Positions 59,910-62,037 of a stretch of 64,000 bases of DNA are shown in pieces (positions within the stretch are counted from its first letter, which is position 1; every line of letters starts with the position of its first letter). Below the pieces are notes generated by a model, which was not told the origin of the DNA, did not search any database, and worked only from the letters and a program-made list of their open reading frames with translations. The position numbers were made by a program, and so were the translations under genes. The stretch spans positions 3,221,192 through 3,285,191 of the forward strand of contig NZ_CM001437.1 in NCBI RefSeq assembly GCF_000243275.1. Reading direction: 5' to 3'. Source of the stretch: Myroides odoratus DSM 2801. GTDB taxonomy: Bacteria; Bacteroidota; Bacteroidia; Flavobacteriales; Flavobacteriaceae.

Positions 59910-60482
59910 TTATTCTTCTCCTTGTATTTTTTTCAATGCGCGATTCAGTGTTCGCGTGGTAATCCCTAAATAAGAAGCCATATCCTCTTTGGAAATTGCC
60001 ACCTGATTCTTCTCCTGTAGGTGCAATAGTTTTTCCAAAGCATGTTCAACGGTGTACAATTGTTGAAAAGAAGCCCTTTCACTCGTGTGGTATACACGTA
60101 AAGCTTCGACAGATAATAATACATTGTTAAACGTAATATCCGTTTTCAGCAAGTGATCAAAAATAGACAACGGAATTACATACGCTTCTACATAAGAAAT
60201 CGCTTCAACGGAGCACAAACAAGGCATTTTGCCCAGATATTCAATTTCCCCCATGATTTCCCCACGACTCAAAAACTCCGGAATATACTCCTTCCCATTC
60301 TCTTCTGTAATATAACATTTCGTTATTCCCTCGCGGATCACAATAATCTTGGTGATCTGTTCTCCTTGGGTGAGTATTGTATCTTTAGGACTGTATTGTA
60401 TTAATTGTATTTTATCTGCTATAATGTCTTTGTGTGCAATCGATTCAATATAGGATAAAAAATCAAGATTTATTCTTAACAT
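59910..60482 (-). CDS. Crp/Fnr-family transcriptional regulator
   Basis: A 190-residue regulator with an N-terminal cyclic-nucleotide-binding-like barrel (about 20-110, SPKDTILTQGEQITKIIVIREGITKCYI) and a C-terminal helix-turn-helix (VAISKEDMASYLGITTRTLNRALKKI, about 160-186). No Fnr-type cysteine cluster. The motif AGGACA-AA-TGTCCT lies 16-29 bases upstream of the ATG and is a candidate autoregulatory site. Convergent with the catalase gene; a regulatory link to catalase is possible but unproven. Confidence 0.87.
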   Translation of the reverse strand: MLRINLDFLSYIESIAHKDIIADKIQLIQYSPKDTILTQGEQITKIIVIREGITKCYITEENGKEYIPEFLSRGEIMGEIEYLGKMPCLCSVEAISYVEAYVIPLSIFDHLLKTDITFNNVLLSVEALRVYHTSERASFQQLYTVEHALEKLLHLQEKNQVAISKEDMASYLGITTRTLNRALKKIQGEE

Positions 60483-60497
60483 ATTTTTATCATTAGG

Positions 60498-60511
60498 AGG
60501 ACAAATGTCCT
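60498..60511. promoter_or_regulatory. Operator-like palindrome upstream of the Crp/Fnr gene
   Basis: Perfect 6-bp arms AGGACA and TGTCCT around AA. Size and two-fold symmetry suit a Crp/Fnr dimer; the binding protein is inferred. Confidence 0.5.
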
Positions 60512-60640
60512 ATAATAGATTCAAATTAATATGGACTTTTGTTTTGTTCAAATGTAAAGAATTTAATCTTAGCGATGTGTTGTGTTAAGATAGATTTAAA
60601 CATATAGAACGCAAAACAAGCTAGCAAAAATACAAGTTAT

Positions 60641-60690
60641 TTAAAAACAGAAGAAGTGTGTGTAAGTGATAAAAAATCTTCTGTTTTTAA
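60641..60690. repeat. Perfect 14-bp inverted repeat
   Basis: Arms 60641-60654 and 60677-60690 around a 22-base loop; each arm has a five-base A or T run and AGAAGA or its complement. No gene assignment. Confidence 0.75.
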
Positions 60691-60707
60691 CGTATAAAAT
60701 ATTCGTG

Positions 60708-60739
60708 TTGATGTGTACCTTGGTATACTCATAACTTTG
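60708..60739 (+). promoter_or_regulatory. Promoter of the candidate small RNA
   Basis: TTG at 60708-60710, 21-base spacer, TAACTTTG at 60732-60739. All consensus positions match, yet no protein gene follows before a terminator. Confidence 0.6.
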
Positions 60740-60743
60740 TGTT

Positions 60744-60827
60744 GATTTTCAAATCCTAATTTGAAAAGTAAAAAGTGTGGTTAGATTATAAAAAGAAGTC
60801 CTTTTTTTGAAGGACTTCTTTTTTTTT
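60744..60827 (+). ncRNA. Candidate small RNA of about 84 nt
   Basis: The predicted start lies about 5 bases after the promoter box. The first hairpin is a perfect 9-bp stem (60746-60754 with 60759-60767) and CCTA loop. A roughly 23-base unpaired purine-rich linker follows (60768-60790). Then comes a strong intrinsic terminator (60791-60803 with 60810-60822) and a T run to 60827. There is no start codon with a useful frame in between. The layout is that of a trans-acting small RNA. It matches no family I know; expression is untested. Confidence 0.45.
60791..60822 (+). terminator. Terminator of the candidate small RNA
   Basis: A 13-bp perfect stem with AAGTCC core, six-base T/G loop, and a T run on the plus strand. 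Confidence 0.85.
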
Positions 60828-61017
60828 GCTTTTTGTGAAGTTTGTTGCAAGAGGTTTTTTTGCTTTTTTGCGAGAGGCTTTTTTGCGAACCGTCTTTTAA
60901 TCGATAAACCTACAACTTCACAAAAAACGAAAAAGCACTTCACAACCTAACTCTCCTCTCGAAACTGGTCTAGTTCTTTTTTAAAAACCGGATGCCCTCT
61001 AGCAGTCTTATCCATAC

Positions 61018-61025
61018 TATTTTTG
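61018..61025 (+). promoter_or_regulatory. -7 box TATTTTTG of bioB
   Basis: Exact TANNTTTG match, 28 bases before the ATG at 61054. No good TTG upstream and no clear BirA-type operator seen. Confidence 0.5.
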
Positions 61026-61053: not shown

Positions 61054-62037
61054 ATGAAAGAAAGTAAAGCACCAATCCGAAATAATTGGACGGCTGAAGA
61101 AATACAAGAAATCTATGATTTACCGATTATGGAGTTGGTGTATCAAGCCGCAACTGTACACAGGCAATATCACAATCCACTTGAAGTTCAGGTTAGTACT
61201 TTGCTTTCCATAAAAACAGGAGGGTGTCCAGAAGATTGTTCCTATTGTGGGCAAGCGGCTCGTTATCATACCGATATTAAAGTACAGCGATTATTGCCTT
61301 TAGAAACTGTTTTAACCCATGCTAAAAAAGCCAAAGCCAATGGATCCTCTCGTTTTTGTATGGCTGCAGCATGGCGTGAGGTTCGCGATAACCGAGACTT
61401 TGATAAAGTCATTGACATGGTAAAAGGAGTGAATGCTTTAGATATGGAGGTTTGTTGTACGCTGGGCATGTTGACAGACAATCAGGCAAAGCGTTTACAA
61501 GAAGCGGGGTTATATGCCTATAATCACAACATAGATACGTCTGAAAATCATTATAAGGATATAATCTCTACTCGAACGTTTGATCAACGTTTAAATACGA
61601 TTAACTCCGTGCGTAAAGCGGGAATTACCGTATGTTCTGGTGGTATTATTGGTCTTGGAGAAACAAATGAAGATCGTATTTCAATGCTATTAACTTTAGC
61701 AACGATGGACAAACATCCAGAATCTGTTCCGATTAATGCATTAGCTCGTGTAAAAGGAACCCCTATGGAAGATATGCCGAAAACAGATATTTGGGAGATG
61801 GTGCGCATGATTGCTACCACGCGTATTGTTATACCCACCACGATGGTTCGCTTAAGTGCGGGGCGTTTAGAAATGAATGAAGCAGAACAAGGTTGGTGTT
61901 TTTTAGCTGGTGCAAACTCTATTTTTGCGGGAGAAGAAGAAACTTTACTCGTTACACCGAATCCATCGTTGAGGGAAGACCAACAATTATTTCAAAAATT
62001 AGGACTTAAGCCGAAGGTTTTAGCAGAAAAAAAGTAG
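61054..62037 (+). CDS. bioB: Biotin synthase
   Basis: Radical-SAM enzyme that inserts sulfur into dethiobiotin. The 327-residue protein has the radical-SAM cysteines in CPEDCSYCGQ (C59, C63, C66). It also has the auxiliary [2Fe-2S] site ligands in SRFCMAAAWR (about 100) and EVCCTLGML (about 132), and the ETNEDRISMLLTLA and RLSAGRLEM blocks (about 205 and 267). It is monocistronic with a strong terminator; no other bio genes lie in the window. Confidence 0.96.
   Translation: MKESKAPIRNNWTAEEIQEIYDLPIMELVYQAATVHRQYHNPLEVQVSTLLSIKTGGCPEDCSYCGQAARYHTDIKVQRLLPLETVLTHAKKAKANGSSRFCMAAAWREVRDNRDFDKVIDMVKGVNALDMEVCCTLGMLTDNQAKRLQEAGLYAYNHNIDTSENHYKDIISTRTFDQRLNTINSVRKAGITVCSGGIIGLGETNEDRISMLLTLATMDKHPESVPINALARVKGTPMEDMPKTDIWEMVRMIATTRIVIPTTMVRLSAGRLEMNEAEQGWCFLAGANSIFAGEEETLLVTPNPSLREDQQLFQKLGLKPKVLAEKK

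Follow-up and report, generated by a model that had tools for sequence, protein, structure and literature searches.

What does a strong intrinsic terminator serve in a gap that has no protein gene on its strand? The question is raised by the intergenic region between crp1 and bioB in the 4.3 Mb single-contig genome of Myroides odoratus DSM 2801, studied here within one stretch of 64,000 nucleotides (the window). The genes that border the site are as follows.

crp1, 59910–60482, minus strand: gene of a Crp/Fnr-family regulator of 190 aa, with the Pfam domains cNMP_binding and HTH_Crp_2
bioB, 61054–62037, plus strand: starts 225 bases past the end of the terminator T run at 60828; 95% identity to the bioB of Myroides sp. 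1354

An earlier sequence-only reading of the window had proposed that the gap encodes an undescribed regulatory RNA of 80–90 nt with its own promoter, and remarked that the terminator has no protein gene to serve on the plus strand; the orientation of crp1 and the distance to bioB that it cited are confirmed. The comparison of related genomes points to a larger unit. The reading that we prefer, and consider fairly probable, is that a Crp/Fnr-type regulator drives a divergent, non-coding, trans-acting small RNA, which represses envelope genes by base pairing; the genome has no Hfq or RRM_1 match.

The locus was compared within the genus by DNA and by protein searches. Besides the window's own genome (G000), the DNA search over 398 genomes gave strong matches in G267 (94%), G359 (91%), G058 (86%), and G258 (85%, partial query), and six further matches that were short and weak. 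The Crp/Fnr protein (E ≤ 1e-40) matched 16 of the 398 genomes, 14 of them, including G000, at 68% identity or more; the remaining two, G263 and G235 (49–51% identity to crp1), are without the small-RNA layout and were excluded from the 14 loci. G336 was found through crp1 and is not among the strong DNA matches. A second draw of 120 genomes around G122 gave no further locus. For discussion purposes the loci are divided into a close group of six genomes (G000, G267, G359, G058, G258, and G336) and a distant group of eight. The loci of Myroides sp. 1354 and M. pelagicus match those of G359 and G330 over the part compared. When the DNA matches are aligned, conservation spans the stretch between the crp1 start and the terminator; between the terminator and bioB, most of the sequence is not conserved.

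A bioB leader or riboswitch was ruled out because a TATTTTTG box precedes bioB, because the stretch between the terminator and bioB is variable and contains a repeat element, and because bioB is not the next gene in several relatives (the next gene is a different one in G122, G157, G330, and G041). The box, at 61018–61025, is kept in G000, G359, G058, and G258 and suggests that bioB has its own promoter. The repeat is an AT-rich element of ~110 bases (60825–60936) directly 3' of the terminator; it has 14 further matches in G000 (E 1.8e-7 or better, 82–95% identity), several of them clustered, and is absent from the corresponding place in G258. The proposed RNA most likely goes with the Crp/Fnr-family gene rather than with bioB.

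The 3' part of the conserved region, all on the plus strand, comprises the following features.

H1 hairpin, 60713–60728, plus strand: GUGUAC-CUUG-GUAUAC, arms complementary in the five close genomes that have H1
H2 hairpin, 60746–60767, plus strand: UUUUCAAAU-CCUA-AUUUGAAAA, 9/9 pairs in five close genomes and 8/9 in G336
linker, 60775–60788, plus strand: GUGUGGUUAGAUUA, identical in five close genomes, GUGUGAUUAGAAGU in G336
terminator hairpin T with U-tract, 60790–60828, plus strand: 9/9 pairs in all six close genomes

The 9-bp hairpin with its CCTA loop (H2) and the strong terminator, a hairpin at 60790–60823 followed by the T run, were both described correctly by the sequence-only reading. 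The segment 60730–60830 folds with z = −5.0, with none of 200 shuffles as good, and the conservation of hairpins that the reading had asked for in relatives is found, in that H2 and T stay paired across the six close genomes; the T stem is altered yet paired in G258 and in G336, where it reads GAGAACC/GGTTCTC. H1, whose double changes are left out of account because its arms were picked by eye, is GUGUAC-UUCG-GUACAC in G359, CGUGUA-loop-UACACG in G058, and a 10-bp hairpin in G258, and is absent from G336. The linker at 60768–60790, which had been put forward as a sequence for target searches, is conserved in the close genomes. Target support belongs to another seed, in the loop at 60655–60676.

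The promoter of that reading exists as a string, with TTG at 60708–60710, 21 bases, and TAACTTTG at 60732–60739, but does not rise above chance: TTG-N21-TAnnTTTG occurs once in the window versus 2.2 times expected in shuffles, and TAnnTTTG 94 times versus 91.4. A stand-alone RNA of ~84 nt that runs from this string (60708–60739) to T, independent of any upstream promoter, would be in keeping with the presence of the string, with the box being kept as TAACTTTG or TAGCTTTG in G000, G267, G359, and G058, and with the second hairpin-terminator units present in several distant genomes. It is nevertheless unlikely, because the string is at chance frequency and its box is broken or deleted in two of the five close relatives: TAACTTTG is changed to TAGCGATG in G258, and G336 has lost most of the promoter stretch and H1 with it, although H2, the linker, and T remain. 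Moreover, the spacer of this promoter folds into a hairpin (H1), which stays paired despite sequence change in the five genomes having it. The string was therefore rejected as the main start. The unit as first described looks incomplete, since the region 5' of it, at 60499–60688, holds further conserved sequence and a promoter with better support, and it is probably the 3' part, or tail, of a longer plus-strand RNA. A conserved plus-strand RNA, well supported by comparison, is what remains of the original proposal; the start, the size of 80–90 nt, and the bioB context are replaced.

The upstream region contains a palindrome and two divergent promoter boxes.

palindrome GGACAAATGTCC, 60499–60510, not assigned to a strand: predicted operator, with sequence and distance unchanged in all 14 loci
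−7 box of the RNA promoter, GACTTTTG (GAnnTTTG), 60534–60541, plus strand: G, A, and TTTG present in 14 of 14 loci, the two middle bases variable
−7 box of the crp1 promoter, TACATTTG, 60549–60556, minus strand: TAnnTTTG at an offset of 37 or 38 in 14 of 14 loci

The distance from GGACAAATGTCC to the crp1 start codon is 16 bases in every locus, and on the plus strand the palindrome is followed by exactly 23 bases and GAnnTTTG in all 14, G000 included. Column counts over these loci show the palindrome and the G, A, and TTTG of the box to be invariant, with the intervening bases drifting, and the operator-to-box spacing is unchanged in a 15th genome, that of Myroides marinus. The box of the RNA promoter is GAnnTTTG rather than TAnnTTTG, and in the window the −33 TTG is absent. 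The pattern GGACANNTGTCC has a single place in G000, the palindrome, and its control pattern has none; second places in G218 and G122 fall within frames of 311 and 431 codons.

The class II position of CRP/FNR-type activators is −41.5. In Flavobacterium psychrophilum, the sigma-A box TAnnTTTG occupies −12 to −5, according to the accessible part of PMC9723704, and because this box position was adopted, the start of the RNA is placed at 60546 and the palindrome centre at −41.5 of it, which is the class II position. Judged from promoter spacing alone, 60546 is the most likely start. The crp1 start is predicted at 60544, so that the promoters of the RNA and of crp1 would overlap back to back and the operator would fall within the crp1 leader. 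The adjacent regulator is predicted to bind GGACAAATGTCC, given the position of the palindrome beside the gene and a similar palindrome beside a paralog. Related Crp/Fnr genes, including the G000 paralog (C1:866235–866798), have such a palindrome, GACAA[A/T]TGTC, just upstream and a possible divergent start codon within about 100 bases of it.

The predicted RNA and its 5' features are as follows.

predicted small RNA, full length to T, 60546–60828, plus strand: delimited by promoter spacing and the conserved terminator, with a predicted +1
5' stem-loop domain, 60546–60611, plus strand: apical loop GAUGUGUU, from the consensus fold and strand z-scores
H0 hairpin, 60643–60688, plus strand: stem AAAAACAGAAGA/TCTTCTGTTTTT with U-tract, at a conserved position
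H0 loop, 60655–60676, plus strand: carries the seed GUGUAAGUGAUA at 60660–60671, complementary to the leaders of a TonB-dependent receptor gene and yidC

The RNA would be about 143 nt long if it ended at H0 (60643–60688) or about 283 nt if it ended at T. It probably continues through H1 and H2 to T in the window's group, whereas the seed hairpin is its probable 3' end in the distant group. The 5' domain of the six close genomes has z-scores of −2.8 to −4.6 on the plus strand versus −0.1 to −2.0 on the minus strand; it is more negative on the minus strand in five of the eight distant genomes. The MFE of RNA1 is lower on the plus than on the minus strand in all 14, and its z-scores do not separate the strands. 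Of the 74 pairs in the consensus fold for the close group, 12 are changed on both sides, and the RNAalifold covariation term is unfavourable (+1.79). The alignment for the first consensus fold had been trimmed at the predicted +1. With upstream sequence added, the consensus helix reaches into the promoter, and single-genome folds differ from one another in how the bases around +1 are paired; a fold that begins exactly at +1 was therefore dropped as evidence for the start.

The H0 loop in G000 is AGUGUGUGUAAGUGAUAAAAAA, with the conserved core GUAAGUG. At the H0 place, the eight distant genomes have a hairpin with a terminator-like stem of the CGGGAG type (TGGGAG in G041) and a loop that contains UAAGUG and is ten bases long in seven of the eight folds. 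AAGUGAUAA precedes this hairpin and is invariant in nine aligned units; 4 of 14 pairs change on both sides, and the G-U pairs fit the plus strand. G157 has this unit twice in tandem, the second copy (L136:2361–2422) again with AAGUGAUAA and GUAAGUG. The covariance model of the seed hairpin scores its nine building units at 73.9–87.9 bits, by construction, and nothing else in the 398 genomes above 43.2 bits. A multicopy family was rejected, the model having matched only crp1-linked units at high score. Under stricter filters, the distant-group model did not detect the window's own H0, so that the two H0 hairpins are equated on the strength of their position, promoter, and loop motif.

These hairpins bear on the idea that the conserved region consists of regulatory sequence and terminators around crp1 and convergent neighbours and yields no functional RNA product. 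The crp1 promoter and operator do explain some of the conservation, a convergent gene can use the second terminator that some distant genomes have, and strand z-scores are ambiguous for much of the region. Far past the crp1 promoter, however, there are conserved paired hairpins, with G-U pairs consistent with the plus strand and a loop of fixed sequence, and we regard an explanation that dispenses with the RNA as decidedly improbable.

The preferred reading takes the RNA to be non-coding, and no peptide is common to the 14 genomes. Short stretches are shared within groups (VCVSDKK or MCVSDKK in five close genomes and a 16-residue stretch in G122, G296, and G157, with one residue different in G296), and past such stretches the frames of near relatives diverge, as between G192 and G218. 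By sequence, the element has its own promoter and an intrinsic terminator, as a base-pairing small RNA would. A covariance search with Rfam 15 found only a tRNA above the gathering threshold in the window; between 60480 and 61060 the best match reached 32.2 bits, on the minus strand, versus the 55 needed, and no family was assigned. Among the papers listed by a literature search, none dealt with a Myroides small RNA. A role as a protein-binding decoy with repeated GUGUUG motifs was considered and is conceivable for the 3' part.

Complementarity to the H0 seed leads to the predicted targets. Apart from the RNA gene, the seed complement TATCACTTACAC has one place each in G000, G359, G058, and G258 and two in G267; its reversed control has two in G000 and one in G258 and is missing from G267, G359, and G058. 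In all five genomes, one place lies 8–19 bases before the ATG of the same receptor gene, and the second place in G267 falls inside a frame. The receptor gene lies downstream of glucose-6-phosphate isomerase. Its product, a TonB-dependent receptor of 954 aa, contains a carboxypeptidase-regulatory-like domain and has a SusC/RagA score below the curated cut-off; the gene has one match per genome at E ≤ 1e-120 in all 14. Its leader keeps CACTTAC in 13 of 14 genomes (CACATAC in G041), and TTATCACTTACACTT stands before its ATG in 13 of 14. The target site is nearly invariant; the complementarity is therefore conserved, yet there is no compensatory change between the two RNAs.

In 13 of 14 genomes, at least 988 of 1000 shuffles give a weaker duplex than the actual loop and receptor leader; G041 breaks the pairing (−4.8, 383 of 1000 shuffles as good). 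Confined to stretches predicted to be unpaired, the test is passed by 10 of 14 genomes (at most 13 of 500 shuffles as good) and failed by G359, G267, G058, and G041, the last of which fails both; in G192 and G218, the best duplex under this test runs through the linker and not the loop. At −20.6, the receptor duplex is stronger than any formed with the 64 ORF starts taken from the window (mean −7.4, best −18.1), which are the first ATGs of ORFs of at least 100 aa and not all genes. The duplex with yidC, a gene identified by NCBIfam, is −17.6 and would rank below one of these starts (−18.1). A scan of four genomes with the shorter pattern TATCACTTAC-N0-20-ATG gave the following: (i) two places in G000, both true starts, those of the receptor gene and yidC (control, one); (ii) five in G258, with the receptor gene and yidC at true starts (control, one); (iii) ten in G122, only the receptor gene at a true start (control, six); and (iv) six in G330, only the receptor gene at a true start (control, one). 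The only true-start matches are thus the receptor gene, in four of four, and yidC, in two of four. The yidC leader of G000 and G258 carries TTTATCACTTAC upstream of the start codon, which matches the small RNA seed.

Conserved complementarity could equally be a shared DNA motif, and the motif in the receptor leader is close to the promoter; the 12-mer might then serve another regulator as its DNA operator, at the RNA gene as well as at the receptor and yidC leaders, with no RNA pairing at all. In the RNA gene, however, the motif is the loop of a hairpin, the stem of which differs between the two groups yet stays paired, and in the leaders it adjoins the start codon in the orientation needed for pairing. 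An operator of this kind seems to us a poor bet.

At the level of sequence, operator, box, spacing, hairpins, and complementarity are conserved, and the genomes have no frame in common; transcription, its start site, its activation, and the direction of target control are what we infer from them. In the circuit proposed under the preferred reading, the regulator would bind GGACAAATGTCC at −41.5 and activate synthesis of the RNA from 60546 in class II fashion, and its binding at about +35 to +46 of the predicted crp1 start would limit its own expression. The RNA would fold into hairpins, and the loop (GUAAGUG core; GUGUAAGUGAUA here) would pair with UAUCACUUACAC, which closely precedes the start codon of the TonB-dependent receptor gene, with the duplex predicted at −22 to −3 in the closest genomes, and in G000 and G258 also with the yidC leader. 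Pairing over the translation start region suggests repression, and at both leaders it would most likely block translation. A stronger form is possible, and we offer it only tentatively: the sole perfect operator would control only the regulator and the divergent RNA, and since the only perfect operator belongs to these two, the RNA would execute the whole regulon, its loop silencing the TonB receptor and YidC without Hfq, RRM, or Shine-Dalgarno pairing. In the distant group this loop is apparently that of the RNA's own terminator.

Neither Hfq (PF17209) nor RRM_1 (PF00076) has a match in G000 at E ≤ 0.001, with control matches for both in other genomes. In enterobacteria, the small RNA gene lies back to back with the activator gene in the OxyR-OxyS, SgrR-SgrS, and GcvA-GcvB pairs, an arrangement that the Myroides locus resembles; those pairs belong to other regulator families and use Hfq, whereas the Myroides locus has a Crp/Fnr-family protein and no Hfq match. 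Helicobacter pylori is, to our knowledge, without Hfq. Its RepG, as described in the accessible part of PMC8295292, has its seed in the loop of the terminator hairpin, a target in a 5' UTR, and an intergenic gene beside a regulator gene. By description, the predicted Myroides RNA shares the loop seed, the 5' UTR target, and the gene position and differs from RepG, in which a C/U-rich loop faces a G-repeat in the target.

Within the Bacteroidota, the portion of PMC11697453 drawn on here describes FopS of Bacteroides thetaiotaomicron as 14 RNAs of about 65–70 nt that carry their seed in a single-stranded 5' part, have an RRM partner, and repress an outer-membrane receptor mRNA at its 5' region. 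The FopS and GibS RNAs, taken together with RbpB, resemble the predicted Myroides RNA as base-pairing RNAs of Bacteroidota, and FopS also in having the 5' region of an outer-membrane receptor mRNA as target. As far as that description goes, the Myroides RNA, with one locus per genome, a hairpin-loop seed, and no RRM_1 match, does not belong to this multicopy group with its 5' single-strand seed and RRM partner. Rfp18 of F. psychrophilum, as described in the part of PMC9723704 at hand, has several stem-loops with a predicted pairing region in a stem-loop, is widely conserved in Flavobacterium, and is linked to metalloproteases; by description, the predicted Myroides RNA is like it in being a flavobacterial small RNA with several stem-loops and a pairing region in one of them, and the wide conservation and the metalloprotease link set Rfp18 apart.

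The predicted small RNA is a new one that belongs to a familiar kind, and the circuit proposed for it is unusually complete. We know of few Bacteroidota small RNAs for which both regulator and target are known. At this locus, the genome of which lacks a match to Hfq or RRM_1, both take the form of exact sequence predictions, and the circuit suggests how such bacteria may tune outer-membrane uptake after transcription.
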